From positions 1,795,186-1,859,185 of the forward strand of contig NC_049984.1 of assembly GCF_000003815.2 (NCBI RefSeq): 64,000 nucleotides of DNA. The letters are read 5' to 3'. Position 1 is the stretch's first letter, and the number at the start of each line of letters is the position of its first letter. The notes beneath the pieces were generated by a model that searched no databases, was not told where the DNA came from, and saw only the letters and a list, made by a program, of their open reading frames with translations. Shown one piece after another: positions 1,329-64,000 of the stretch. Origin of the DNA: Branchiostoma floridae. Its lineage: Eukaryota > Chordata > Leptocardii > Amphioxiformes > Branchiostomatidae. The position numbers were made by a program, and so were the translations under genes.

Positions 1329-20839
<19,511 letters not shown>

Positions 20840-30790: not shown

Positions 30791-30999
30791 GGAACAATTA
30801 ATAGATTAACTGATTGATTGATTGATTGATTGAGTGTGAGAGAGTGAGTGAGTGAGTGAGTGAGTGAGTGAGTGAGTGAGACATGCCCTATTACCAACTT
30901 GGTGAATGTGAAGGGTCTAATATATATAATGTCTTAACCCAAGAACTTAACATGCTGGAGACATATTCTGTAGATGTTTCTTACCTCCGGCTTTCGGAG

Positions 31000-32258
31000 C
31001 TACTTCAAGGTTTTGGCCAAGTCCTTATCATACTCATCAGGGTCAATGAACCCGTTGTTGTTGGTGTCCATGGATTCGAACCAATCATCGGGCAGTTTGG
31101 AGACGTCAACTTCCGCCATAGCCTCCAGCATCCCCAGAGCCTCCTGCTTGGACAGCTTATGGTCCTCGTCCTTGTCGTGGTGCTCGAACCCACGACCAGC
31201 CATGACGCTCCCCTCTGGGGCGATGTCCTCTTCTTCTCTGCGCAGCATGTCAAGGAGGCTGCGTGCATCCTCGACCACATCCCTTGTGAACAATCAGGTA
31301 CATAGTATTGTTATTCATCAAGGTGTTTTCTGATTCACGAGTTATATTCTATAACACCTTGAAATAACGACTATGGCATGTCTAAGCCTGAAGGTCCGCT
31401 GCAGTACTTTAGAGACTTATTGTCGAAATTGCCCCATCTTCCAGACCCCACCCACCTACCAAATCTCATAAAATCCATCTACGACTTAAGCTATTCACAC
31501 ACTAACAGCACCGAAAACACAGACCTTCTCGACAAAAACAATAACCATTTGTTTGCTAGCTTATAGCTAAAAAAGGTACGGAGATGTCGGATACCTGATG
31601 GCGACTCAACGGTAAGTTGCAGGTTACATTTCAAACTGATTTTGGTAAGAGACCATATCTAACGGATATCTAGATAACAGGACTGCTCAAAAGGTCATGT
31701 CTACTTATATATCGGAATGATTTTCAACGCAATTTACCTCTTACTGTGTCTGCAGCCCCCGTAGCAGTTACATCCGAAGCAGTTGCAGTGCCCGATTCCA
31801 CAGAAGGGTGATCCCTGTGTTTGGTGGAGACGCACACGTCCGTTTATATAACAAGAACACCTCACTCCATCCCCCTCCACTCCATCTCTCTCTCTCTCTC
31901 TCTCTCTAACTCCCTCCCTCCCTCCCTACCGCCAACCCTCCCTCCCTCCCCCCTACCTCCCTCCCTCCCCCCTCTCTCTCCCTCCCTCCCCCTCTCTCTC
32001 CCTCTCTCTCTCTCCCCCCCTCTGGGCAATGGGCAATCAAAATTTGGAGAGGCATTTTGTTTCCTTTTGTTTAGTTGGAACAAAGTTGCAACAAAGAAAG
32101 ATATTTACCTGCGTTCCATCTAGACAGCGGCCGGTGCACCGGCGGCCCCAACACCACCCAGTACAGTGCAGTTTAGCATGGCAGCAGAACGAGTCTGCCT
32201 GGTCCACCATCAGCACCGTCAGGAGGGTGCACAGCCCCAGGAACATCTTGTAGCCCAT
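31000..32258 (-). CDS. Mytimycin-like antimicrobial peptide precursor with EF-hand C-domain (169 aa, 3 exons)
   Basis: Exons on the - strand: 32258-32109 (phase 0 end), 31814-31738 (phase 2 end), 31282-31000. They sum to 510 nt with stop. Residues 1-23 form a signal peptide (MGYKMFLGLCTLLTVLMVDQ + ADS). Residues 24-76 are Cys-rich and basic, with 12 cysteines (six in each of exons 1 and 2), ending R-H-S-K-R, a dibasic processing site at the intron 2 junction. Residues 77-169 are acidic and hold two EF-hand loops, DKDEDHKLSKQE (His at the usual Gly position) and the canonical DTNNNGFIDPDE. A signal peptide, a 12-Cys peptide of about 54 residues and an EF-hand extension is the arrangement described for the mussel antifungal peptide mytimycin; homology is my inference. 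It would be secreted, with the acidic domain possibly acting as a calcium-binding pro-region. The exon model rests on splice sites only; no polyadenylation signal found. Confidence 0.82.
31410..31500. repeat. Decayed relative of the 27060-27195 repeat
   Basis: Shares the CCAGAC-CC-ACCCACCTACC-AAAT-TCAT-A-ATCCATC order with the better-preserved copy. It lies in intron 2 of the antimicrobial-peptide candidate. Confidence 0.45.
31881..32022. repeat. CT/CCCT-rich low-complexity tract
   Basis: (CT)n then (CCCT)n-type sequence in intron 1 of the antimicrobial-peptide candidate; purine-rich on the coding strand. It makes long spurious open frames on both strands. Confidence 0.9.
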
Positions 32259-32388
32259 GGTTGGCTAATGGGAACAATTGGTATGAGATGAGCTGGTAAT
32301 TTTAATCCACGAGCGGCATGAATTGAAAATAGGTAGCTATACCCGAAAAAGGTCGGTTTCTATCGCAAAATTAAACCATGTTTGTGTT

Positions 32389-32503
32389 GGACAGAACTGA
32401 TTCTCCCAGATACTGCTTATATTCAGTTATTAATGACTAGGTACATGGACAGAACTGATCTCCCAGATACTGCTTATATTCAGTTATTAATGACTAGGTA
32501 CAT
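32389..32503 (-). repeat. Two tandem 57-58-bp copies upstream of the peptide gene
   Basis: 32389-32446 and 32447-32503 are identical apart from one T (GGACAGAACTGATTCTCCCA / GGACAGAACTGATCTCCCAG, then TACTGCTTATATTCAGTTAT). They lie 131 bp upstream of the start codon, where promoter elements are expected. No known binding site recognised. Confidence 0.85.
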
Positions 32504-32984: not shown

Positions 32985-33470
32985 AAGTTGGCGTGGCTGT
33001 GGCCTTTGGAGGAAGGGGGTGTGGCAGGGCGTACTGGGTCCTGGGGTCCAAGGCAGGGAGACGCCGTTGTGGTCACTTGGAGAAAACGGTCTAGCAGGAC
33101 AGACAACAATGAAGTCTTTAGGGAAAAACAGCGTGGCAGGGGCGACGGGGTCCTAGATCCTGGACAGGGCGTCGTCCCTGTAGTCACTCTGCAAAACTGC
33201 ATGGTAAGACGGATAGCATGGCAGCGCGGACGAGGTCTTGGGTAGGGTCTCTGGGGGAACCGGTTCGACAGGACTCCTGGACAGGGCGACGTTGCTGCCC
33301 AGGGCGGACAGGGCCTTGGTCAGGGTGACGCCGTTGTGGACATTCCAGGAGAAAAACGGTCTGACAAAACAGATAGCATGGCAGGGCGGACGAGGTCCAG
33401 GGTAGCATATCTGGGGGGAAACGGCGTGACCGGACCGGCGGGGTTTGGGGCAGGGAGAAGTCACAATGGG
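32985..33470. repeat. G-rich degenerate minisatellite
   Basis: Recurring blocks GTGGCAGGG, GACGGGGTCCT, GACAGGGCG, GACGCCGTTGTGG, GGAGAAAAACGGTCT and GATAGCATGGCAG with about 120-bp spacing. Produces long open frames without conserved content. Confidence 0.6.
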
Positions 33471-40848: not shown

Positions 40849-43800
40849 TTAACTTGCCTTTATATAGCTGTAAATAGAGTCAGAACCGTACTCTTGATAG
40901 TGAGGCTGCTTATTGTACTCCTCAGAATCAAACATACTGATTCTGAGTTCCTCAAAGTTTGCAGGTTTATTACACATTAGCTGGTCGATTATCTCCTGAT
41001 GACCCTCTGATTCAGAGAACATGCCATCAATCGTCAATATCTCCAAGGTTCTGTTCCCCTGTATCGCCAAACATAGGTCGGAAAGAGACTGTCTACTACA
41101 AATTCCCTTATATGTTGTATAAGAAGTCTTAAACAAGCTGTATAAAAAATGAGTACGCATCGCAATTTTCCAGGTAAGCCGTAGCCTTTTAAGCGTTTTG
41201 TTTGTAGACAGACATGCCGTAAGCGTTTGTACCATTGTCTCGACATCAAGTGCCACAAGCCTGACGGACGTATCAGCTGGCGAATCGAAACACACCCCAT
41301 CCCCGAAACACTCGATGTTCACCGGATGTTCTAGCTCCACGACCTCGAGTGCTGCATGCTCAGAGATACTTGTTAGGGTTGCTGTCAGGTTACCAAACCC
41401 TCTTGGTTCTTCTGACCAAATCCACTGATCTATCTTCAGCCTTGCGGACCTGAGACAACTCTGTCTTGTAAGCAAGACTGAGAACAGTGAGTCGTAATGT
41501 GAGAAGTCTGGGCCCACGTTTCTCCCTATGTTGATGTTGACATGTTGTAAGCTCTGTATTTCTGATAATTCCTCCAACATGGTTTCCACTGGCACAGAAT
41601 CAAAGTCGTCAGTGTTTCCGAAATCTATGTGCACACTTTCTGTCCCACGTCGTGGTATGAATGTACGAAACGGGGAGTACCTGTGTCGGTCTGATGACAT
41701 GTACGGCATCCCCCCCATCAAAGTTTCGGGCTGAAGTATTGTCACACAACTGATTGTATCACAATCTGATAATGCGTCTTCTAACATATCGACTTGACGT
41801 TGTTGCAAATTGTTATATTTCACATACTCGTTGTTAACCGTGAGTTGCTGTATCAACCTTGGATCATGGTTCACAGCCAATGTGCTCTGGCATCTGATTA
41901 CTTGTATCAAACCTCCAATCCACTCAGCAAGATCTTGCACATCAAAGATATCATTATCTCCATACTTCCTCAAGTCGTTAGTTATGTGCTGTGGCAAACA
42001 AGGTGTCACAATCTCCGCCATTCTACAGTCTGCCCTACCATCTTCACAAGCTCTACCAAGAAACATGATACAGATAAAGGACAAAAGATCCTTGTCCTCC
42101 CCTTTACTCCATCTTTCCTAAGTTCCTCTGCAAACATTTCAAACAGCGGGCCTGAACTGTCACCCAGCATCGCAAGCAACATGTTTTGAACCTCTCTGTA
42201 CCTCTCACGGTTTGCTGACATCAGTTTCATGTCAACATTACTTGATGTAGAATTTGTCATCCCAAACACACTACGAAGACATTCTTTACCCTCTTTACTC
42301 TCCCTTTTGACTAACTCACGGATGTACCAGGCAGCCAAGTATTCCTGAAATGTTTTATGCAAGAAAGCACAGAAGCAGGTGCGTTTGATTCTGGAGAAAG
42401 AGTAATCTCTTGTCAGTAAGCCGATAGCCAACATGTCATCGGCATTCTGTCCATACTTCTCTTTGATATCATCTATGTTAAACTGAAGCCGATCCTGCTC
42501 TAGTCCCTCCCAGGACAGTTTCCCCAGGCATTTCAATGCTTCTTCTATGTTTGGGGGAATTTTATTCCTTTCTAATGGAATGTCTTTCTTTGCACAGTAT
42601 CGCTTGGCAACTGAATATACAATCATTTCATACAATTCAGCTCTGCTGGAAGGCAACTTCCCCTCATTGTCTTCCCAGACAATACATACCAGTACATTGT
42701 TGAGGGGATTAACAATTATTCTCGACAAATTTGGGTTACATTCAAGCTGTTTCACTACCTTTATGGCAGATTCAGGTGTCTCATTGAAGTATTTCTCTAT
42801 GAATTGAACAGAATTCTCTCTGGTGTAGCCAACGATTTTGTAAAACTCGTGACATTTCTCCAGGTCTTTGACACAGTGGTACGGCCTGGAGGTCACCAGG
42901 ACATGACAGTTTCGGAGGATTTTACCTTGAATCAAGGCCACCACATCTGTGACTTCCTTAGCTGTCTGACTGAGCTCATCTAGACCGTCCAGGATGAAGA
43001 GAACATCATCCTGGTTCTCTCGGATGTAGGACCAGAGCTGGTCCGGGGTAATGTTTATATCTTCTGGTAGGAGCTGCTCAATTATCGCGTCTTTAACATT
43101 TCCAGACATGTGTCGCATTTCAAGAAAGAAAACAGTCTTGAAAATATCTAGTTTCCCAGTTGACCAATCATGAGCCAGTTTCTGACAAGAGCACGACTTC
43201 CCAATACCGGGATCCCCCTCTACCCTTATCCTTCTAACAGCCCCCCTGGTATGAACATTCTTAGCTTTAGCTTGGTTCGTCTTGAAAATATCTTCTAAGC
43301 TTACAATAGTACAAGTGTCATGGAAGTACCCCCAATTGCCCCTACGTTGATGTCGCAGGTTGGTGTAGACTTCTCCCAATGGCAAGTTGAGGTCTTCACA
43401 CCACGGAAGAGGCCGCACGCTCGCATACTCTGTGACATACAGGTCTTTGAGACTGTTGATGACGTCATCAACTGTACATAGCGGTCCTGTAATGCATAAC
43501 AAAGGTTTTCGCGCACTGAACATTTGTGTATTCTTTCACGGTTCAGTAGATATACGATTAATACCCATGTCCATGTTTTGACAAGATCGCCATTTCATTA
43601 TGACAGTTGATGTTTTAAAGTAGACTCTGTCAAAACAAGAAATTAGTTTATTTGTGGTATGTGTGGTATTTGCTTCGTGGTGGGCACAGGCAAGGATAAC
43701 TTCTGCTTATCTAGAGGTCAAAAAAACTTTTTTTTGATCCTGCACAAGTCGGATGGATGCTATCCACTTCTCTATAGAAGTAAATAAGGGGAATGTTAAA

Positions 43801-43995
43801 CATACTCTGCTGAACTTTGCAACTTCTACACTGAATAACATGTTGTTTTCAATTATCATAACATTCACATAGACGTGAGACTATTTATCAATGATTTTTT
43901 TCTTCAATTGACATTTGTTTATTGGTATATTTGTACTCTTTTGTACATATCTGTATGTATGTATGTGTGTTTGAGTGTGTATGACCTGTATGTGT

Positions 43996-44035
<40 letters not shown>

Positions 44036-44768
44036 ATATCTGCCACAAACCTGCTGTCCGAGCCACGCCATGTCCATGACTCAATGTAGAGAGCCGCTGT
44101 GCGATCTCAGCAGCGATGTTTGGCAGCTCATTAGTAACATCATCTCTCTGCACACGTCTTGCACTCATCTGTTTTAATGTAGGGGAATACCTTCCGACAG
44201 ACTCACTGAAGGCCTTGAACTTGTCCTCGTTGGCATCAACCCAAATGGGGAATATGTGTTTGTTGTTTTTCAGACATGTTTCATACTCAAGTCTAGGCCA
44301 GTAGGATTTGTTAAGGAATGATGAGCTAACGGCAATGACAGCAACCTCTAAACTTTCACTCGATAAGGTCGACATTATTCTGTCCCTGATGACGTCACCA
44401 GGTTTGATGGAAACGTCATCAAAGAAGATGTCTTTTTCAGCCAACCCTTGTTGCTGCAGGTTGCCGACCAACGGGCGGACAAATGAGTCTTTGTCTTCCC
44501 CTGCATGAATAACGAATACTCGTGGTTCTGAAAAGAGAGGAATGCTTAGCGTCAAAGACATGTATTTGAGTTAACAGCAGAAAAAAAATGTTCTATTCTA
44601 TATCCCCTTATAGTATTTGCCAATAACATTCACAAAACATAAAAAGGTAATCTCTTTGATGCAACATCTACTGGACTAATATTACCTTTTAGCAGTTAAG
44701 GCTTTCAAAAAGAAATTAATACCATTTTGTTCAATGCCTGCAGGGATAACTTGCTGGTCTTGATGCAT
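40849..44768 (-). CDS. TIR-NACHT receptor (NLR-like), with a 1-nt frameshift
   Basis: Exons on the - strand: 44829-44723 (ATG at 44768, 15 codons plus 1 nt, after about 60 nt of UTR), 44527-44051 (TIR), 43486 onward (NACHT and C-terminal region). TIR: RVFVIHAGEDKD, then SIKPGDVI and SYWPRLEYETCL; the Glu in WPRLE falls where NADase TIRs carry their catalytic Glu (inference). NACHT: Walker A GDPGIGKS, Walker B LFILDGLDEL. The frame shifts near 42107: relative to the paralogue at 48772-52616 one A is missing in CCTTTACTCC (the intact gene has CCTTTACATCC). As written, translation stops at 42006 after 667 residues. The conserved LRR-like C-terminal region continues in another frame to 40849. It is either a recent pseudogene, a truncated functional form, or a sequencing error. 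A candidate 5' UTR exon donor lies at 46074. Intracellular innate sensing is the expected role. Confidence 0.85.
43989..44033. repeat. (TG)n microsatellite just after the TIR exon donor
   Basis: Starts about 20 bp downstream of the donor at 44050 on the - strand, where it reads (CA)n. Intronic CA repeats next to donors can affect splicing. Confidence 0.9.
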
Positions 44769-46410
44769 TATTGAAAGATGCAGATAGCGGTGCTCCAAAG
44801 CCCCTCAAAACAGTTCGCAAGCGTCGGTCCTGTGGTAAGAAAAAGAGAAAGGGTGACATGAATGAAAAGAAAACAGATTCTTGGCAATATTCTAGAGATA
44901 TCGATTCACACCAGTTCACCAATTTTTGGCTCAGTTGCTCGTACTCGGCATCACCTGACTCTGACGTTGACCTTTGAAACGTTTAAGCACTACTTTTAAC
45001 ATATAACAACGTTATGACTTTGTATTCTACAAATGGAATAAGTTTCGGCTTCACACTTATTTCAATATAGCAATGAGTCCCTTTTTCTTTGCTGATTTCG
45101 TCAGTTAAAACAAGCTTTTTTTAACGACCTTGACCGTTGCCATGTACTGTATTTAGAGTATTGATAAGGTTAGGCCTTATGGTTGGTGGGGATTACATAG
45201 ATTAGCTGGACAGGTGAGCCCTGATTCCCTACTGAGAGTAGCCCATTGTCATCTTACATGACCTCAGAGGTTCTATTGGACGTTAATCAGACAGTCGAGA
45301 CAGTTGAGTGCCTAATAAGTATGTATAATCTATGACGTATTCTACGAAATGACGTGCTTTTATCTTCTTCATCTCGTATAGCATGTACAGGTGCAATACA
45401 CTCTGAATAGACCCGTGCCTCAATTGACCCGTGCGCTTGTTGAAACGGACATGGCACTATTTGCATTCGAAAAATGTGGGGGTTACCCACGAATGAGATC
45501 TTAGGGGTCAACACACCTTTCTTCAAAATGGCGGACCTGGTTAGGAAACCGGAAGTATATTTACGTGAGAGCTACAAAACGTTTACTTGAAATATATGGA
45601 GATTTAGTGGTTCCAACAGGAAGAATGTAAGTCTAGAGCAGTCACCACGCGCACACAAAACAAGTGTATGTAGCTTTTAGATTCGCCAGCCAAAAAAACT
45701 AGAATCATTTCACCAGGTGACATCCCTTGCCGTGATCGACATGACAAAATTGCAAAAGGTAACGTTACAACGTTAAGTGCTGCGTAGTCCCTCACTTGTC
45801 CAAGGTTGAAGACAAAATAAGGAACAGGCCTGGAGCCTTCAGACGTCTAACACATACCGTTCACTCATGACACCCTTCCTGTTCTACACATGAATATTAG
45901 ACTTCTCCCGTTGGGGTTTACGTCTAAAACGGCACGACAAGAATTTTTGAAGCAACGACTCACTCGGGGAGGGTTCCGGACTGTATTGTTCAGAAGAACG
46001 ACTTTCCTTGCTAGATACAACTACGTATTGAGTATCTTTTCGACAAGTTTTTCGACACGTCAATAGAACTTACCCTGGTTCTCTAAATGGAGTCTGGTTT
46101 TAACAGGAAGGTTAAAAACAAGTTCCCCTCGTCTACGTCACCCTCGGTGTTGAAATGGTGGGTGTTCGAAGTAGGGTGTTTACATTGCACAGTACAAAGG
46201 GATCACGTGATGCACTTGGAGGGACCTACTGCTCATTGAATTTTGATTGGTAGAGAGAAAATCTGGCAATAGCATCTTCAATCTATGTACAGATTGGTTT
46301 TGTATGTGTGCCTGTATGTGTGTGTGTTTGTGCGCCTGTGTGTGTCTGAGTGTGTGTTTGCGCGCTTGTGTATGTGTGTGTTTGTGTGTGTGTATGTATA
46401 TGTATGTATG

Positions 46411-46880
46411 TGGATAGGCCATGACTGGCCCCTCGCGTAGGGTAATACGCCCCTTACGAGGTGATATACCCTTATTTGGCAGAGTACAAGACGGTGATGC
46501 TCCACGTCTCCCGTCCGGGTGAATGTTCCAACATGTCACTCACCATATGGCTGATACGAGACAGAGGTTCGCCAGGCTGATACGGTATGGAGGTTCGGGT
46601 GATTTGAAGTGAATCAACAACTCCAGACAGAAGGGTTTGCTCCGACCACACCGCACCATCGCACATGTGGGGGTTCTTTAACGTGCATGGGGTGTGACTC
46701 TCCCCATACACGGGACCTCCATTTAACGTCCTATCCGAGGGACGACTCATTTTTCACTTGAGTAAAGTGAGGAAAGTCGTGTAAAGTGCCTTTCCCAAGG
46801 GCACAAGACCGGCAACACGGCAGGCGGATTCGAACCGGCGACCTCTCGGTCACACACTACCACTGTGCTACGCGGCCCCA
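46411..46880 (-). mobile_element. tRNA-derived SINE with intact pol III boxes
   Basis: On the - strand starts GGGGCCGCGTAGCACAGTGG (A box TAGCACAGTGG), then B box GGTTCGAATCC. The body has CCTTGGGAAAGGCACTTTAC, GACTTTCCTCACTTTACTCA and CACGTTAAAGAACCC, and the tail is (CATA)n. It is inserted in a TG-rich microsatellite whose two halves are at 46305-46410 and 46880-46975. Confidence 0.8.
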
Positions 46881-47324
46881 CGTGTGTGTATGTACGTGTG
46901 TGTTAATTTGCGCGTGTGTATATATGTGTGTGTGCGCGCGCGTGTGTATTTGTATGTATGCGTATGTGCGTGTGTGACCTGGCCGGGATTCAAATTTGAT
47001 TACGACTGTTTTTCAGCATAGCACTACTCATTATATAACATGACCTAGCTGGTGTACTATATATAAGTTGTATTACATTTATATGGAACGAGTGAAGCCA
47101 GCTGCGTGTTGTCACTGCGTCTCAGGTGATCGATACACCGACCGGTACAACAGTCATGTCTTAAAAAGTATAGGTCAAAGGTATATGTCCTATAGCAGTG
47201 CTGCTGCACGTAGGGCAGCAAGACCCCTTGATGTTTACAAAGCAACATAATGTTTACCGTGTAGGGTCTCTGGGCCCCATGCCAAAATGAGTGATGTATT
47301 TGGGTAGCACACGCCGGGGTATGT

Positions 47325-47410
47325 TATGATTTGCTATGTTATGTTACGTACTTATGACATGGTATGTTATATTATGCCATATTATGTTCTTATGTTATGT
47401 CATATCACAT
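47325..47410. repeat. ATGTTAT-rich simple repeat
   Basis: Irregular iterations of TATGTTATG / ATTATG. Confidence 0.7.
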
Positions 47411-47454
47411 TTTGCAAACACCAACATTAATCACTTAACATAAATGCTCCTTTC

Positions 47455-48480
47455 AATTGTTTAATGATTCGTGAAAAACGACAAATATGTGTTATTCAAG
47501 CATCGTGACATCTAATGATAGTGGCACCCTTCAGAGCACGCGCAGAACATCTCATTTATATATTTTTACCTTCCAGTGGTAACAAATTCTGACAATATGC
47601 ACAAAACTGACTACTCTGTATAAATGACCTCTGTACAATTCATTACAGTACATATATTGACATTCGAGCCATAAAGACATTTAATATGTATACAACAACG
47701 GTCATGTGATTGTAATATCTCTTTCTTTTGCTTAAACAATCATGTAAATAGAAAATCTGAAAAGCTACATTATATATAGTAGGTAAAATGAAATTTTATA
47801 AATTCAACATTCTCTAACCTAACACCTTTGGTTTTTGTGACGGATGAAATACATGCTTATGGTCGACATCACAAAAGGTACATGACGCAATCATACACGA
47901 CCTCACACCAAATACAATAATATCATAAAAAAGTATATAACGATAACAGAATAGACTGGTTTATTATTGAGGCTTGATTGCGAGATCCAAAATGCAAATA
48001 AGTTCTGAACATACAATACAAGATAAAATACAGCAGCCAAATAACAATACATAGTAAAGTAAGATGATCAAAACATGATAGTAAAACTTATAAACTGTTG
48101 TAAAAGAGTTTGAAAATATAAATACAAGTAAAATACACACAATTAAACTACAATTGCTTTAAAGGTGACATTCTTCACATTTGGCGGATAGATGCTTACA
48201 ATGTTCGTCCCATTTACATTTAGACGTCGGCATACATACATACATTAATATTCTTGTGTTACACTTATAACGTTATCTTCGGTGAACTGTGAAACGTTAT
48301 ACAATCCTACCCTATAAAACTTAAATGTATATATTGTCAGTGTTCACAGCAATCATCAAAGTCATGAGTGGTGAGGGGAGGTTCAAATGGTAGCAAATGG
48401 TCTTGCTCTTGTCAAATGTTCTGCCGGTTTCCATTTCAAACTTCACAACTAGATGATACCACAGAGTTTAATCTTGCGTG
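47455..48480 (-). repeat. 3' flank of NLR unit 2 (duplicated segment)
   Basis: Blocks TTTAATGATTCGTGAAAAA, GTGGCACCCTTCAGAGCA, CATTTATATATTTTTACCTT, CCAGTGGTAACAAATT, GACATTCGAGCCATAAAGAC and TCCATTTCAAACTTC match 40015-40750 and 55390-56370 in order. Confidence 0.65.
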
Positions 48481-48771
48481 AAACTATGCTGTTGCCTCAT
48501 CTTCATATTTCCGATTATGACTTTTCCTATCCTTCATAGTCACTACACTTTCCAGCCACAGTTCTGGTGTATGACTGATTTAAATATCGATCTTTTATCT
48601 AACTATGCTTACTGATGCGACAGGGGCACAGATTCGCTTGCTGCTTATTGACTACAATTTTGACACCCAGACGAAACTTTGCGCAGTGGATGCTGCAGTC
48701 GCTATGGAAATTTGGTAGTAGAGGTGTGCCAAGGCTATCTCCCAAAGGGCGCACTTTTGGCGAACTTTTGG

Positions 48772-51700
48772 TTATGGTGATTCGAGTTCCTCACCACTGC
48801 AACTAGAGTCACTACAACTATTGGAACTGTCCGTAGAGATGCATTGAGCGTACTGTTTAGATTTAAACATGGTGATTCTGAGTTCCTCAAAGTTTGCAGG
48901 TTTATTACGCATTAGCTGGTCGATTATCTCCTGATGACCCTTTGATTCGGAGAACATCCCATCAATCGTCAATGTCTCCAAGGTTCTGTTCCCCTGTATC
49001 GCCAAACATAGGTCGGAAAGAGCCTGACTGCTACAGATTCCTTTGTATATTGTAAAAGAGAAGATGTTCAAGAAGACACCAGAACGGTCAAGGAGTTTAC
49101 AGGTAAGTCGTAGTCTTATTAGCAATTTGTTCTTAGTTATACATTCCGTAAGATTGTTAACCATTGAGTCGACATCAGATGTGACAAGCCTGTTGCATTT
49201 ATCAGCTGGCGAATCCCAATACTCGTCGTTCACTGGGTGTTCTAGTTCTACGACCCTCAGTGCTGCATGCTCAGAGATACTTTGTAGAGTTGCTCCTAGA
49301 TTACCGAACCCTCTTGTTTCTTTTGAACTACGTACACGACCCCACCGACCAAGCTTCACGCTTAGGGACCCGAGAAAACTATACTTCACAATCATGTCAG
49401 CCAACAGTGAGTCGTAATGTGAGAAGTCTGGACCACCGTTACGCCTTATTCTGATGCTGACATGTTTTAGTTGTTTTTTTAACAGTTCATCGACAGTTTT
49501 TCGAAAGCCAGAGTTATCAGTAGACGTGATATCTATATGCAAACGTTCTGTCCCACGCCGAGGTATGAGCATAAGACATCTCAAAACCAAACTAACCTCT
49601 AACAATAATACACAAGTAATTGTATCGCAATCTGATAATAAAGCTTCTAACATTTCAAAATGCTGTCGATCGCGAAGAAATAGACGTTCACAGTCTAATG
49701 TGAGATATCGTATCGACCAGGGATTGTGGGCCAACGTCCTTTGACATTTGATCACTTGTATCAAACCGTCAATCCACTCAACACCATCTATTGTGAAAGG
49801 ATGAACGACACCACGTTTGGGCACGTCGTTACGTATGTGCTGGGACAAACAAGGCACCACAGACTCTGCCAGTTCACACCCCATTCTACCAGCTCCACAA
49901 GCTCTACCAAGAAAAGCGATACAGATGAAGGACAAAAGATCCTTGCCCTCCCCTTTACATCCATCTTTACTAAGTTCCTCTGCAAACATTTCAAACAACA
50001 GGCCTGAACTGTCACCTAGGATTGACAGCACCATGTTTTGAATCTCCTTATATCTATCACGGTTTATTGCCATCAGTCCCATGTCAACGTTACTAGATGC
50101 AGCCTCTGTCATCCCAAACAAACTACGAAGACATTCTTTACTTTCATCCCTTTTACTTTCCTTTTTGACCATGTCACTGATGTACCAAGCAGCCATGTAT
50201 TCCTGAAATGTTTTATGTAAGAAGGAGCAGAAGCAGGTGCGTTTGATTCTGGAGAAAGAGTTGTCTCTTGTCAGTAAGCCGATAGCCAACATGTCATCGG
50301 CATTGTGTCCATACTTCTCTGTGATATCATTTATGGTGAACTGTAGCTGATCCTGCTCTAGTCCCTCCCAGGACAGTTTCCCCAGACATCGCAATGCTTC
50401 TTCTATGTTTGAAGGGATTTTTGCACCCTCTGATGGAATGTTTTTCTTTGCACAGTACCGTTTGGCAACTGAGTATACCATCATTTGATACAATTCAGCT
50501 AGGCTTGAAGGTAATTTTCCCTCATTGTCTTCCCAGACAATACATATCAGCACATTGTTGAGGGGATTCACTACTAATCTCGACAAATTTTGGTTACGTT
50601 TAAGCTGTTCCACAACTTTTCTAGCAGATTCAGGAGTCTCAGTGAAGTATTTCTCTATGAATTGAACAGAATCATCTTCGCTGTAACCAACGATTTTGTA
50701 AAACTCGTGACATTTCTCCAGGTCTTTGACACAGTGGTACGGCCTGGAGGTCACCAGGACATGGCAGTTCCTGAGGATTTTACCTTGAATCAAGACCACC
50801 ACATCTGTGACTTCCCTAGCTGTCTGACTGAGCTCATCTAAACCGTCTAGAATGAAGAGAACATCATCCTGGTTCTCTTGGATGTAGGACCAGAGCTGGT
50901 CCGGGGTCATGTTTGTATCATCAGGTAGGAGCTGCTCAAATATTGCATCTTTTACTTTTCCAGACATGTGGCGCATTTCTAGAAAGAAGACAGCCATGAA
51001 AATATCCAGTTTCCCAGAGGACCAATCATGAGCCAGTTTCTGACAAGAGCACGACTTCCCAATACCAGGATCCCCCTCTACCCTTATCCTTCTAACATCT
51101 GGTGTACTTTTAGTTTTGCTCCTGTTGTAAATATCTGCTAAGCTTACGATACTACCGGTCTCCTCGAAGCGCCCCTTTCGGTCCTTGCGCTGATGTCGCA
51201 GGTTGGTGTAGACTTCTCCCAAAGGCAGGCTGGGGTCTTCACACCAAGGAAGAGGTCGAACCTTGGCATACTCTGTGGCATACAGGTCTTTGATAGTGTT
51301 GATGACGTCCTCAACACTACTTGGCCCTCCACTTCCGCTGGGCGGTGCTGCTGTACCTACAAGACGTAACAGACGTCAAAATGTGGTATTCCCTCTTGTG
51401 TGTTTTGAGTGTCCCTTCGTTATTGAAAAACCTATGATTGTATTATCTTTATTGTATATTCCTGTCGTATGCAAGCCAATTTAGAGTTAGTACGTTCTCT
51501 TCACGGGAAGAGACCGAGAAAACATACTGAAGCTAAAAGGCTGGTATTTAGGCAAATCTAGACGAGAATCGCAAAACTTGTGTTTCGCTCTCAGAAATCG
51601 TGGTTCTATGTTTACATTCAATACGGATTACATGGTTCAATATATGCACAAGAACGAAGCGTGTATGTACCATTTAAGTTTTCTGCTGTGTGTGTTTCAC

Positions 51701-52616
51701 CAATGTCGATGAGGGCCTGTTGCAGAACCTGTAGAGTAGCTCTCCTTCCCTCCCTGTTTCTCCACCGGTTCAGCACCTCCCTGCACCTGTGATCATTGTC
51801 ACGCTCCGAGCTTCGGATTCCCTTTATTCTGTTCTCCTTGAACCCCAGCTTCCGGGCCAGGTCGTCCCACTTGTGGCTGACTTCACCGATGACGTCATCA
51901 AAGTATTCCTGTACGTCATCTGGAAGAAATATGAATTCATCTCTTTACAAAATGGACATAAAGTGATGAGAGGAATAGGTTTATCTGATGAGACACACCG
52001 ATGACACGGCTACGTTATCCTTGATGTAGCAAAAGTAGCTACTGTCACCTGAAATTAATGTGCAATATTGTAAAGGGTTGTATATATACGGATGTCGGGG
52101 GAGGGGGGGGGGCTTGGCATGCTAGCTAGACTCTATGGATCGATATGTACGGTCATATCAAATTTACCCGTGTGTACATATCTAAGAAAATGGTTAACAT
52201 GGAAACCGATAATGCTTTACCTAATATTGATATTGCATAATAATGCTTTCAAGTTAAAGCAACTATATGGCGAATCATTGAATGACAAATACTCGACGGT
52301 TCTGGAAAGAGAGGAGGCAAAAAAGACACGCAATTGAATTAGGAACAGGTAATTCTATTCTATGTTTTGGTATATATTTACTATGTGTTAAAATTATCTT
52401 TATTGTGTTTAAACTACACGAGTAGAAATTCTTAGGTCAGAATCTTTATAGCATTTCATAAAACCGTAACATATGATCTCTTTGAAGTGATATCTCCTGG
52501 GTTCATATCACCTTAGAACTTTGATACAGTAATTCTATTCCAATAAAAATCTAAGCTTGCAAAATCATACCATTTAGTTCACTGTCTGTGGGAGTGCCAT
52601 GTTGTCCCTTTTGCAT
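48772..52616 (-). CDS. Death-NACHT receptor (NLR-like), intact, 949 aa
   Basis: Exons on the - strand: 52680-52571 (ATG at 52616; MQKGQHGTPTDSELN plus 1 nt), 51919-51701 (Death domain), 51356-48772. Coding lengths 46+219+2585 = 2850 nt. Death-fold exon: SHKWDDLARKLGFKENRIKG, then H-R-C-R-E-V-L-N-R-W-R-N-R-E-G and L-Q-V-L-Q-Q-A-L-I-D-I-G, the six-helix death pattern. Main exon: a VEDVINTIKDLYATEYAKVR lead, Walker A GDPGIGKS, Walker B LFILDGLDEL, NACHT-associated helices (VNPLNNVLICIVWEDNEGKL), then a Leu-rich C-terminal region with degenerate LRR-like units (LSDLCLAIQGNRTLETLTID). Strongly similar to 40849-43486. Expected to act as a cytosolic sensor signalling through homotypic Death contacts. 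A candidate UTR exon donor lies at 54077, a duplicated one at 54730. Confidence 0.93.
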
Positions 52617-58479: not shown

Positions 58480-61400
58480 CTAGTACTCAATAATGTGCTC
58501 CGGGTAGCACTGGGCATTGTCGAAGATGACGAAGATGTTAGGACTGGCCGTGTCGTTGACACACGAATCGTACATCCGACCGAACGGCTCACCCGGGTTG
58601 ACGGGGGGAGGGCGGCGGACGCCCGCATCCCCCTTCGCGTACGCCCCGACCAGAACCCTGACCACGAACATGTAGCGGCGCCCATTGGAACCCTGCTGGG
58701 CGTAGTTGTGTGAGTACTGCGAGCTGGCGGAGAAGTACGTTCCCTGCCCGTAGATCTGCCCGACTCGCGAGCCGCTGAGGCGCCAGTCGAAGTTTTGCTG
58801 GCAGATGGCGTCCACGACGGCTTCCTGCGTCCCGTGGAAGAGGCGACGCTCCTCTACATCCTTCCCGCCGTTCTGTTTCTTCAGCTGGGCTTTCTTCCTG
58901 TAAAGGTAATTAACAGTGATATTTTTATATGCATATAGAAGGGTAACAAAAAATAACCGGTCATTGATTGGTTACGCATTCTTTAAATTGCAGCAGCGAC
59001 ACCTAGCTGCTGTGCGATGTAGGACCAGTCAGTAGAGGTCTCAGGAAGGCAAGACGGCCACCGAAAAGTCTGATAATATTAGCGCCTTGCTTGTGTACAG
59101 ATAAAAATACATTTTTGAAATCTAACTGGTCACTGCTGTTATATTTTTTCTGATAGTGATGTTGCGGTCATGGTCGTTGGAAAAGGCAATGTATCTCCAT
59201 AGAATTTGAGGTTGTTATCCACTGCGTGTAGTGCACGGTATTGGGAGGTATCTGGAATCCAGACACCCTAACCCTTACGCCAACACGACGCTACATAATG
59301 ATGCAATCTTATCAGACATTGATCAGCTGTGGAAGTAGACCATGCTTAATCTCCAAGCAGATCTATCGGAGGCAATGACAGACTCCAAATGGCTCAACAG
59401 TGTCCAACTGGCCTCCCTAGTTACAATTGGACACTGTATTCCGTCTTTGGCCCCGATAGATCTGCTTGGAGATTAAACCACTCTATGGAAAAGCCCACCT
59501 GTTATATGCGCTCCAAAGAAAGGCATTCTGGACACGCTTGACTCCCGAAATGGCTGTTCCCGCCATCCCGTTCTGCTCAAACAGCGTCCTGACGTCATTG
59601 TACTCCTTAGTGTTTCCCGCCACGTCCACTTTGACGAACTCGTCGTCTTCTGACATGGCGGACCAGTGGGCTGGGGTGGATTCGTCCCAGGCTGAGGCGC
59701 CTCTAGCGGATTTTGCACGAACTGCGGGCTTCGGTCTAATGACAAGAGGATAATTATGACATGAATTCCTTAGAAGTTACTTTTCAAACATTGATCACTG
59801 CTGATGAATACCCAAAATGAAATGGGAAAGACAGAGGGAAAGAGCAGACGATAGACAGATATCGAAGTAAAAAGAAAGAAGAAAATGACTCCATAAGAGA
59901 GAGAGAGAGCTAGAGACTGAAGAGGACGAGGAGATATTTCCTATCTGTCTGTCTGTCTGCCTCACTGTCTCTCTCTGTGTGTCTGAAAATCATGACTCAA
60001 TCCAATCTGGCAGGAGGTGACAAGAGGAGAGATACTCTAAAGAGAGAAACAGGGAGAGAGAGAGAGGGAAAGGGAGAAAGAGAAGAAAGCAGAATTATTA
60101 TTCAATCAATATGTAAACGTACTCACATTTTTCACATTCTCCCCTGACAGCAGGACAGAGATTCCAAAAGAGAGACAAGAGAGAGAGGGAGAGACAGGAG
60201 AAAGAGAAAGTTAGAGAGAGGATGAGTGTTCTCAATCCACTCACTTGGGTGGGTTTTTCACCTCCTCCTCCGACACGAACTTGGGCCGACGTCTGACGTC
60301 ACGGCGGGTCCCGACCCTGGTGTTCTCCTGACACATGTCGCGCAGGCGCAGTACGTACTGGTGATGGCCGGTAGAGAAGATGACGTCAGCGTCCTGTTGG
60401 TCCTGAAACTTGTCCTCGATGTCCCTACTGGTCAGGCTGCTCGTGCCGCGAACCTCCCCGCTTTGGTTCTAAAGAAGTGCCAACAACAGGCTTTGAAAAT
60501 AGTTTCATTTCTATGCTACATATATCAAAGAAATACCTACCTACCCACCTAACTAGTCTCAAAGAAATGCTCGATTTCATCTGGATAAAATCTGATAGAT
60601 TTCTCCAAAGTTCTCCATCACGCCAGTAGCACCGTCACTCCGTCATGAACAACTAACCAACCAATCAAGCTACCACACGGACAGACAGACAAGCACAAGC
60701 TAAAACATGTAACCCCTTCCGAAAGTCTCACCATGGCCCGTCCCCTTCCAGCCAGTACCACCGCCACTCCGTCACGAACAGGTGACCCGGCGGAGACTTC
60801 ACTGAGGAACCAAACAACCAACAAACCAAACAACCAACAAACAAACAAACAAACGCGTCTGTTCAGTCTCACCATCTGCCCGCACTCCACCCAAGTCCCG
60901 CCCACGTCCCTCCAGTACCACCGCCACTCCGTCACAAAAACTGACCAAGCTACCACACAGACAGACACACAGACAGACACAGGCACAAACATATAACCCA
61001 TTCAGAAGTCTCACCGTCTGCCCGTACTCCACCCATGTCCCTTCCCCGTCACACCAGTACCACCGCCACTCCGTCACGAACAACTTACCTACAAACCAAG
61101 CTTGCACATAGACAGACAGGCACACAGACAAATAGACAGAAACACAGACAGACAGACAGGCACAGCGAAAAAAAAATATAATCCCTTCCGAAAGTCTCAC
61201 CATGTGTCCGTACTCCACCCAGGTCCCGTCCACATCCTTCCAGTACCACCGCCACTCCGTCACGAACAGGTGACCAGGGGGAGACTTTACAGACGACGAC
61301 GTGGAGAGACGGCGCACCTCGAACTCCTGGCGAGAGTCACCGGTATTGCAGTCCGCCACCGCCTTCATGTCCGCGAAATTCACTGCGCAGGTTTTTCTGT

Positions 61401-63906
61401 AAACATCGCCACAAATTTACTCCAAGACGTTGAGAGAACGAGTAGTCTATTGTTATCTCTTAAACGGTTACTTTCTTTGACTTATGGTCAATCTTTCTTT
61501 TCATGTAAGAAAGATTTCCCGGCCATTGTAACGAAGAAATTGGTTGCGTCAGACTTACAGCGTACCGAAACCTAGACTAAGTTGTAGTGGCTTCTGAGAA
61601 CACCCCCGCTATGCGTCGCTACACTTTGAACACAAACAGGTCCACGGTTTAGCCTCTACCAGGCTTCACAGGTCGCTGGAAAAATAGTAGAAATTGGCCA
61701 AATAAGACAGAAAACACGCCAGAGGAGCTAGATGGCCGAGGAGTACAGTTTGCGACCGAGTTTTTAATTAGCCTAGGAGTGAACTTACCGGCCGGATAGC
61801 TGGATAGACTGCAAAAGACTGACTAAACTCTCATTTCAACTTAAGTTATTTGTCCCTATTTCGCCAAATTCTTATCTTATTTTTCATCCAGATGACACGA
61901 CTCCGTAAATTATTTCATCAGGTTGGTCGATCAATTGAACAAAGTCTTCTTCGTTACACAACCTTCTTTTAATTGTTCAGTAAACGTTTTGATAAAATGT
62001 ACTGATGAAGGCGTCAGATGGTCGTCGAAACGTTTACTGAACAATGTAACGAAGAAGACTGACATGGCTGCTTAGAGATAAGGTCCACAGTGTCTTGTTT
62101 GCGGTCCTGCCACTGAAAGCATAAAAAGAAAACGATGAACACCAACCCGTCCAGTCGCACAGGGGAGTAGGTGTCCTCGGTGACCTTGCAGTAGGCCTCC
62201 TCCACCATGACGTTAAGGTCATGTCCAAGATGGCGCCACCTGTCTGCTCCAGGGGCGCGAAACTGCCACTGGTACGGCATGCGGCAATGCCACCTCTCAC
62301 AGAGGGTCTTGTAGGAACACCTGTGAACAAACGCAAACAGTGTAGGAATAAGTTAACATTCTTTATGCGTTTCACATCGTGTACATCGCGGAACTGCCAC
62401 TGGTACGGCATACGGCAGTGCCACCGCTCACACGGGGTCTTGTAGGAGCACCTGGGAACAAATAGACACAGTGTAGGAATAAGTAAACATTCTTTATGCC
62501 TTACACATCGTTTACATCGCTGTACTGCCACTGGTGCGGCATGCGGCAGTGCCACCGCTCACACGGGGTCTTGTAGGAACACCTGTGGACAAACGCATAC
62601 AGTTTAGGAATAAGGAAACATTTTTCATGCGCTTCACTTGTGTACATAGCACGTTGTGCAATGGCCCCATGTACATCGGTGTACCAGTATTTACTATATA
62701 GATCTAGTATTTGTCAAATTTCGCCTCAAAATTACCATCCCACAATTTCCTTCATTCAGCTTCCATCAACTTTCGGCAAAGTTTGATTATTGACATGCAT
62801 GATTGACTTGATACGAAACTTCATAAAAAGAGGATGTGTTATGTATGGAATGGCTCGCCCACGGGCCATCGAAAGTGAAAGTACACACGTCATTTCCGGT
62901 GTCTACAAGGCGGGACGTTTCGCCAAGTGAGCGAAACTTCTTTCATTTTCTTCTAGCAGACAATTTGCGGCACCAAAGGGCTCTTTTCCAGGACGAAACG
63001 TTCAGTTATTTCTAGTAGTGAATAAAAATGATTTGGGCAATGTCTCTATGACTGATATATCTACACCATAGTTATTAGTACTACATTACAACTACAAAAC
63101 CCCATAGCACAAGCATCATATATACCGCGCCAAAGAAAATGAGAGTTGGCCCACCTTTGACGGATGTTGAAAATACAGATTTCGTCCAACTTCTCTGGGA
63201 CTTTGTCTCCTTGTTCTGCCTTCTTCTTCTTGACGAGATCCTTCTTAAAGATGTCGATGACGGCCTTCTCGGAGGTGCTGGGGATCCCGAACTTCTGCAG
63301 GATGCCCCTGTTTTGCGGGGTCATGACGTTGTGTGAAAAATCGCACTGGCCCTTGTCGAAGATACAGCCCCCGACGAGATAGCGGCTGCACACGTGGAGA
63401 TATGTGCAGGCGTCGCCCTTGGTGCAGCCCCGTTGGCGGTTATTGTACCAGGTACAGGCCTGGGGCAGTTTGGCGGGGACCGGGGCAGGGTTATCGTTCG
63501 CTCCGGACCTCTGGCGCGACCGTGGCCAAGGGCGGGCGCGTCCGCTGGCCGGTGGAACCTCGGGCGGTGTTTGCGGCATTTGTGCAGCTCCCATTTGCAC
63601 AGCCTGCATTAGCTGCATGACATCGCTCATAGAGAATTTAGCCTCGTTGCCGACCATCGGGCCGCTAGGAGGCTGAGGCACCTGTTGAATAAACCCTCCA
63701 CGGCCACGGCCTCGGTCCATCCCGCGACCCCCTCTAGGCCCTCCCCTTCCCCCGCGACCGTTGGGGTTCGGAGAGGGGCTAGGCCCGCTGTAGCCCCTCC
63801 CCCTCCCTCCACGGCCACGGAAACCTCCTCGACCCCGGGGGTTTGGACCGCCCCTAGTGCCGCTACTGTGGGGTGAATTGTCCCGGTCGTGCTTCACGGG
63901 CTCCAT
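58480..63906 (-). CDS. PARP12-like: PARP12/PARP13-like CCCH zinc-finger ADP-ribosyltransferase (666 aa, 6 exons)
   Basis: Exons on the - strand: 63906-63155, 62320-62147, 61396-61201, 60468-60245, 59735-59499, 58897-58480; total 2001 nt. The start is the first ATG after an in-frame stop upstream. The N-terminus is RG/RGG-rich. Fingers: CTWYNNRQRGCTKGDACTYLH (Cx9Cx5Cx3H), then CSRYLVGGCIFDKGQCDFSH (Cx7Cx6Cx3H), then a third, C-x7-C-x5-C-x3-H, split across intron 1. WWE1: PYQWQFRAPG...EEAYCKV, ending NFADMKA. WWE2: FVTEWRWYWKDVDGTWVEYG, ending YVLRLRDMCQENTRVGTRRD. Catalytic domain: VQNAFLWSAYNR, FHGTQ (His), GTYFSASSQYS (Tyr), CYPEHIIEY near the C-terminus. Related vertebrate genes act in antiviral RNA recognition and mono-ADP-ribosylation. 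Orthology to one vertebrate member (PARP11/12/13 or TIPARP) cannot be fixed by eye. Confidence 0.93.
59346..59476. mobile_element. 131-bp hairpin MITE with TTAA ends
   Basis: TTAATCTCCAAGCAGATCTA + TCGG at 59346-59369 and its exact reverse complement at 59453-59476; the loop has a further inverted GTGTCCAA/TTGGACAC. TTAA ends recall piggyBac/Kolobok targets. It lies in intron 5 of the PARP gene, 22 bp from the donor at 59498. Confidence 0.8.
59860..60235. repeat. GA-rich low-complexity intron
   Basis: Repeated GAGAGAGA, AGAGAGGGAAAG and CTGTCTGTCTGTC tracts between PARP exons 4 and 5. Confidence 0.85.
60620..61200 (-). pseudogene. Four partial tandem copies of the PARP WWE2 half-exon
   Basis: The 3' half of exon 61396-61201 recurs at about 61018-61085 (FVTEWRWYWCDGEGTWVEYG), 60870-60940 (FVTEWRWYWRDVGGTWVECG), 60728-60800 (FVTEWRWYWLEGDG, truncated) and 60620-60655 (degenerate, with a stop). 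The first three keep a GTGAGA donor. They lack the exon's 5' part and start in the wrong phase for simple substitution. The open frame does run from the true exon through the intron into the next two repeats. Confidence 0.75.
62321..62585 (-). pseudogene. Two partial tandem copies of PARP exon 2 (third CCCH finger / WWE1 start)
   Basis: Exon 2's acceptor and first about 20 codons (CSYKTPCERWHCRMPYQWQF) recur with exon-side ends at 62451 and 62582, a period of about 131 bp including intron sequence. Both copies keep a CAG|GTG acceptor and the finger residues. Both then diverge into GATGTACACGATGTGAAACG-type sequence and lack the rest of WWE1. The copy at 62582 has an in-frame stop soon after. 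Confidence 0.75.
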
Positions 63907-64000
63907 GTTTGATAGTGTGGGGACGTTTTTGTGCTGCTTCCCTTCGAATGATACCACGGCAGAAGGTAGGGACTCCTTACAGCGCTAGAAATCGCGTGGG

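Follow-up and report, generated by a model that had tools for sequence, protein, structure and literature searches.

A predicted amphioxus precursor with a Diedel SD2-like knot on an EF-hand propeptide, mytimycin-like in build

Gene content of the window

The window, a stretch of 64,000 nucleotides at C6:1795186-1859185, comes from the amphioxus Branchiostoma floridae; the chordate host supposed in the preliminary description is thus confirmed. The gene under study occupies three coding exons on its minus strand. The minus-strand region 40852-51944 is predicted, from its sequence, to be a cluster of genes for NLR-like immune receptors. NACHT frames were found at 42009-43535 and 48775-51375, a Death-domain frame at 51621-51944 and a TIR frame at 43884-44570, all on the minus strand. 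Also on the minus strand, 58483-58971 and 63064-63984 hold a frame for a PARP catalytic domain and one for a tandem of PARP12-like CCCH zinc fingers, which may be parts of one PARP12/ZAP-like gene. On the plus strand, a long array of EGF-like exons extends from 4117 to 19042; Pfam cEGF was found in the two frames that were scanned, and the other frames were recognised by eye.

Exon structure and precursor layout

Coding exons 1 and 2 (32109-32258 and 31738-31814, minus strand) were delimited by a scan of the splice junctions. In the paralogs exon 1 likewise ends behind D-[GN]-T, and exon 2 is matched by both Diedel and mytimycin in tblastn searches of the window. Coding exon 3 (31000-31282, minus strand) encodes the acidic C-terminal extension, which contains two EF-hands, and includes the stop codon. 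When ranges of 8-10 bases around the junctions were scanned, a single combination, 32109/31814 and 31738/31282, gave GT-AG at all four ends. These are the minus-strand junctions that had been proposed beforehand, and they yield an open frame of 169 amino acids ending with TAG at 31002-31000. Transcripts of the family are predicted probably to contain additional non-coding exons, because nine of the ten loci examined have a GT[AG]AG donor 8-15 nt past the stop codon and several have an acceptor-like tract just before the ATG. In the window gene the probable 3' UTR intron donor is at 30983-30984 (minus strand), 15 nt past the stop, as predicted from its recurrence in paralogs. A possible 5' UTR intron acceptor, predicted from a similar tract in several paralogs, lies directly before the ATG (32265-32266, minus strand).

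Repeats were seen in and near the gene. A long purine-rich simple repeat (GA/GGGA) fills intron 1 at about 31865-32020. A perfect 45-nt direct repeat (32402-32446 and 32459-32503) is located about 150-250 nt 5' of the start codon, and diverged GC-rich repeats with a spacing of 160 nt are found at 33193-33257 and 33353-33417.

The spliced frame agrees with the precursor layout described earlier, namely a 23-residue signal peptide, a 53-residue peptide with 12 cysteines, a KR site and an acidic C-terminal domain with two EF-hands. Exon 1 encodes the signal peptide (codons 1-23, 32190-32258, minus strand) and then the first half of the peptide; a Cys-Cys pair occupies mature residues 2-3, and the exon closes with C-x-D-G-T. 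Residues 1-23 are signal-peptide-like with an A-D-S cleavage site, as read from the sequence. Exactly 12 cysteines are present in residues 24-76, which end in KR, and one further cysteine is at position 10 of the signal peptide. For residues 24-74 with six disulfides the calculated mass is near 5.55 kDa. Exon 2 contributes the core F-C-G-x3-C-N-x-F-G-C-N-C-x3-C, then K and two bases of the R codon of the KR site; only RHS-KR follows the last core cysteine. At the KR site, the P4 arginine of furin sites is missing. Since the exon 2 donor lies inside the R codon of KR, the EF-hand exon starts exactly at the presumed cleavage site. The separation of the cysteine-rich and EF-hand parts at an intron, noted previously, is therefore real and falls exactly inside the KR codon.

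Residues 77-169 have a pI of 4.3 and a charge of -15.9 at pH 7; the net charge is +4 for the window peptide versus -16 for the EF-hand pair. Pfam EF-hand_1 matched two stretches of the precursor (E = 4.1e-7), and the EF-hand pair is its best Pfam match. The two 12-residue loops are formed by residues 112-123 (31141-31176, minus strand) and 148-159 (31033-31068, minus strand).

A paralog family in the amphioxus genome

Genome-wide searches covered 513,431,437 bases in 431 contigs. With the precursor as query, 25 exon-level matches were obtained, which correspond to 12 loci including the window gene, and the genome is thus predicted to hold at least a dozen loci of this family. The window gene appears to be more than a chance frame, as the 11 other loci carry relatives and the exon boundaries recur in the complete coding models. 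Tandem copies occupy C6:1.685-1.726 Mb, with loci at 1.686, 1.698, 1.712 and 1.725 Mb, on the same strand as the window gene and about 100-140 kb away from it. Further loci are located on C19, C5 (four), C12 and at 25.8 Mb of C6. Complete coding models were obtained at seven of the 12 loci and have a common plan of three coding exons and phases; the exon 1 donor, the exon 2 acceptor and the exon 2 donor within the KR codon are kept in all seven. Among the partial loci, L016 and L019 have the signal peptide and the peptide (L019 without the EF-hand exon), and L017 and L018 have exon 3 alone. L012 (C6:1722800-1727300), in which most of the peptide core is replaced by a run of N, was excluded from the peptide alignment, and the identical peptides of L010 and L011 were entered once, giving eight distinct amphioxus peptides. 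Row starts for L016 and L018 in the alignment (A4) were set by eye.

The number of cysteines per copy varies from 8 to 13, and a count of 12 was rejected as a diagnostic character. Eight cysteines, at positions 2, 3, 22, 32, 37, 42, 44 and 48 of the window peptide, are invariant in all eight peptides; those at 9, 13, 18 and 39 vary among the paralogs. The L009 peptide has exactly the eight cysteines corresponding to SD2 of Diedel and none besides. The core sequence of L014, L015 and L016 is T-P-C-C-G-x-G-x-C-N-[IV]-F-C-C-N-C, with two added cysteines, each directly preceding a core cysteine. The net charge (K+R-D-E) is +1 to +7 in all eight amphioxus peptides, +2 and +4 in the mytimycins and -4 in Diedel.

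Evidence for selection on the family is weak. NG86 dN/dS for the peptide was below 1 in 20/20 defined pairs (21 in total), with an N-terminal half that is saturated or misaligned. In the gap-free exon 2 core it was below 1 in 15 of 20 defined pairs, with values of 0.37-0.59 in the six that include the window gene. In comparisons among the window gene and L009-L015, each of the 20 pairs for which peptide dS is defined showed a lower dS in the EF-hand exon than in the peptide. For the pair L014-L015 the values were 0.13 and 0.73, respectively, and signal peptide dS was low too. The low dS of the flanks may reflect gene conversion around a diversifying peptide, or may in part be an alignment artefact.

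Relationship to Diedel

Diedel has been described as a family with few members, found in drosophilids, aphids and DNA viruses of insects, with an SD2 fold unlike anything known and with no evident homologs in vertebrates (PMC3307722, PMC6072105); moths were added later (PMC11335235). Drosophila Diedel was the top PDB match of the precursor (E 0.0011) among 56 sequences at E<=10, the remainder being mostly EF-hand proteins. A profile of the eight amphioxus peptides, searched against 177,635 PDB sequences, retrieved only Diedel at E<=10 (E 1.8e-6). In Pfam, Diedel was the sole family at E<=1 for each of the eight peptides (best E 6.5e-4), and hhalign gave a probability of 97.6% for the amphioxus-Diedel pair. 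The Diedel-SD2-like core motif in the window, 18 residues at 31752-31805 (minus strand), is 72% identical to Diedel (tblastn E 4e-7). On these scores the nearest family is Diedel, which the preliminary description did not name.

The genome was also searched from the Diedel side. Diedel itself found two places, both exons of the family (L013 and L019). The Pfam Diedel model (PF13164, cut-off 21.3 bits) found eight, of which five are in the family, and four of the five places above the cut-off are family members: L013 (30.8 bits), L010 and L011 (23.9 each) and L015 (21.3). All scores of the window gene fall below the cut-off, at 17.6 bits for the exon in the genome search, 16.6 for the peptide and 8.8 for the precursor. 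The other place above the cut-off, C17:4766675 (22.3 bits; L021, C17:4763500-4769500, near 3175), carries C-E-I-F-G-C-S-C-D. Family exons were looked for in its neighbourhood and none was recognisable; the frame may belong to a diverged or a distinct Diedel-like gene. Two more places, on C11 and C4, scored less than 21.3 bits.

SD2 of Diedel consists of residues 25-28 and 60-89 and contains four disulfides (PMC3307722). By our count, the cysteines within these limits are 26, 27, 60, 71, 76, 81, 83 and 87, and these eight align with the eight invariant amphioxus cysteines. The spacings leading up to C48 of the window peptide (x4, x4, x1, x3) are the same in Diedel and amphioxus. SD1 with its own disulfide is absent from the window peptide, in which the Cys-Cys pair is 19 residues from the next core cysteine, compared with 33 in Diedel. 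The integrin-binding RGD, a Diedel feature that PMC9116668 places within SD1, is consequently absent too.

Relationship to mytimycin

Mytimycin, an antifungal peptide, has been described as restricted to Mytilida, with its fold and cysteine pairing unsolved; mytimycins have 10 to 14 cysteines, and the gene has a non-coding exon 1 (PMC8004829). PMC3210125 gives three exons and two introns for it. Two mussel sequences (P81614, AET85056) were taken from tables in PMC6628016 and PMC5484132. In an ungapped alignment, C-L-D-G-T-Q-G-S-P-F-C-G of the window faces C-W-D-C-T-A-G-T-P-Y-C-G of mytimycin, and C-N-x-F-G-C-x-C follows in both; the central core of mytimycin, C-G-x3-C-N-x-F-G-C-x-C, is thus present in the window peptide. 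Comparison of the amphioxus peptides with the two-sequence mytimycin alignment by hhalign gave a probability of 96.2%, and mytimycin with Diedel gave 94.4%. Against the amphioxus profile, the full mytimycin precursor scored 18.1 bits, weaker than the mature peptide (22-23 bits). As a genome query, mytimycin found two places, the first being the L013 exon (E 0.036); the second (C2:27172350, E 0.27) was rejected as a chance match, its frame being without the cysteine core. Searched with mytimycin, Pfam returned no match to Diedel, and the PDB returned Diedel at E 0.16, ranked under many EF-hand proteins.

The gene had been called a mytimycin-like precursor. This holds for the overall build and for the peptide core, with the 96.2% probability given above; by score, Diedel is closer. 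Correspondence of all 12 cysteines with those of mytimycin is not supported, as eight of the 12 align and the count ranges from 8 to 13 among the amphioxus copies and from 10 to 14 among mytimycins. C14, C44, C51 and C53 of mytimycin have no partner in the window peptide, which lacks three C-terminal cysteines of mytimycin. Because these four are partnerless and four window cysteines vary, the equal count of 12 is partly a coincidence. Not all of the ten invariable backbone cysteines of mytimycin are found in the window, numbers 4 and 10 (our numbering) being those without a partner. A plain mytimycin ortholog was rejected on account of these two cysteines and the higher score of Diedel. Mytimycins have an optional cysteine pair, placed beside the fifth and seventh backbone cysteines from the text and Table 1 of PMC8004829. 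In our numbering these would be the same two places as in the added pair of L014-L016, and the pair is probably common to mytimycin and these three amphioxus copies.

The EF-hand tails give a different picture from the knot. The mytimycin C-extension reaches 16-17 bits against the amphioxus EF-hand profile, versus 26-44 bits for unrelated EF-hand proteins (calmodulins about 26, best PDB match 43.7). As the mytimycin extension scores below many unrelated EF-hand proteins, the knot may have gained its tail on separate occasions in mytimycin and amphioxus. Separate joining of the EF-hand tail has also been suggested for mussels (PMC8004829).

Predicted function

The amphioxus gene is predicted to encode a free-standing Diedel-SD2-like knot attached to an EF-hand propeptide, mytimycin-like in build. 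The best explanation, to which we give a probability of roughly 0.57, is a secreted precursor from which an SD2-homologous knot would be freed as an immune effector, the EF-hand pair serving as folding partner or mask. The precursor would enter the secretory path, and the knot would fold around four core disulfides and accessory ones. A proprotein convertase would probably cleave after KR and free the small cationic knot, whose activity, as with mytimycin, would most likely be antimicrobial or antifungal. Until cleavage, the acidic EF-hand pair, filled with calcium, would most likely help the knot to fold and mask its charge. The endoplasmic reticulum and the body fluid are rich in calcium, and for this reason a calcium switch is predicted to be a less likely role for the pair. 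The immune-effector function itself is predicted as likely because the peptides are cationic, copies are in tandem on C6 and mytimycin is antifungal (PMC8004829). Against the explanation stand the KR site without a P4 arginine, the score of the window peptide below the Pfam Diedel cut-off, the lack of a Pfam Diedel match in mytimycin, the weaker score of the full mytimycin precursor than of its mature peptide, an EF-hand kinship to mytimycin that is nothing special, and the weak evidence for selection.

The main rival, which we regard as unlikely, is a Diedel-like signalling role. The knot would bind a host receptor or matrix protein by its exposed Asn-x-Phe loop (C-N-x-F-G-C) and thereby tune immune signalling or cell death instead of killing microbes. 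Diedel is the nearest family by score, and a loop with a strictly conserved Asn and exposed hydrophobics is its proposed binding site (PMC3307722). The window gene and L013 retain this loop, and L014-L016 its N and F, but either N or F is lost in L009, L010/L011 and L019. The amphioxus peptides are, moreover, cationic whereas Diedel is acidic, and SD1, the bearer of the functional RGD of Diedel (PMC9116668), is missing.

Reuse of the knot in a non-immune secreted peptide, for instance one with a role in mucus, matrix or the handling of minerals, with the EF-hand pair storing calcium, would account for this pair being the best Pfam match of the precursor. It is improbable, as both relatives of known role are immune-linked (PMC8004829, PMC3307722), and the tandem multicopy layout and variable cysteine number suit effectors.

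Predicted origin of the knot

Sequence comparison identifies the amphioxus knot as homologous to Diedel SD2 and the mytimycin core, and suggests that a single animal defence module underlies all three. In genome searches with Diedel, the Pfam Diedel model and mussel mytimycin, a family exon ranked first in each. Against the amphioxus profile, none of 20,000 cysteine-fixed shuffles of Diedel or of either mytimycin reached the true score. In pairwise tests the observed score was reached, per 20,000 such shuffles, once for window-Diedel, once for window-mytimycin and four times for mytimycin-Diedel. A signature pattern fits 11 of 11 sequences; it was written post hoc and is a description, not a test.

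We put even odds on a reading in which the SD2 knot is an immune module of ancient bilaterian origin, free-standing and EF-hand-chaperoned in mussels and amphioxus, and present in insects as Diedel, a cytokine with SD1 inserted. If so, insect viruses took Diedel from insects, and the 1.15 A structure of Diedel is the missing template for mytimycin. Transfer of the knot between distant animals, perhaps via large DNA viruses, would fit the patchy known distribution and the presence of Diedel in Baculoviridae and Ascoviridae (PMC3307722). We consider it quite improbable, since neither an intron-free nor a virus-flanked copy was seen and scans of viral contigs revealed no relative, although these scans reach close relatives only and missed the known viral Diedels too. 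Convergence of small cysteine-rich peptides, for which the shortness of the domain, the few pairwise shuffles reaching the score and the lack of a Pfam Diedel match in mytimycin could be cited, is highly improbable given that D, G, N and F match at fixed spacing, a Cys-Cys pair is at mature residues 2-3 in all three, no profile shuffle reached the score and the three genome searches arrive at one family.

In the open-licence PMC literature, no paper pairing Diedel with mytimycin or with amphioxus was found, and core strings such as CNIFGC occurred in mytimycin tables only. Among open-licence PMC papers naming both mytimycin and amphioxus, the portions consulted did not place mytimycin in amphioxus. 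If the link is true, one module is common to a chordate family with many copies and to two immune families regarded as orphans. Mytimycin would then have a structural template, a possible evolutionary source of Diedel would be at hand, and what the EF-hand propeptide does could be tested in a chordate.

Comparison with known systems

A precedent for the distribution is provided by big defensins, an antimicrobial peptide family that PMC10608444 reports from horseshoe crab, mussels and Branchiostoma; in sequence and fold class they are unrelated to the amphioxus peptide. Diedel (CG11501; PF13164; PDB 3zzo/3zzr) is, like the window peptide, secreted, with Cys-Cys at mature residues 2-3, C-x-D-G and Y/F-C-G-x3-C-N-x-F-G-C-N-C-x3-C, and all eight SD2 cysteines are at matching spacing. 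The window gene differs from it in having neither the ferredoxin-like SD1 subdomain nor the RGD, in a cationic rather than acidic peptide, in four additional cysteines and in the KR site and EF-hand pair that follow the knot. Mytimycin, like the window gene, has a 23-residue signal peptide, a cationic peptide of about 54 residues with 12 cysteines, a basic cleavage site and an acidic C-extension with EF-hands. Three cysteines upstream of the core and one within it, and a peptide spread over two exons, set the window peptide apart from mytimycin; the two nevertheless share the pattern C-x-D-x-T-x-[GA]-x-P-[FY]-C-G-x3-C-N-x-F-G-C-x-C.
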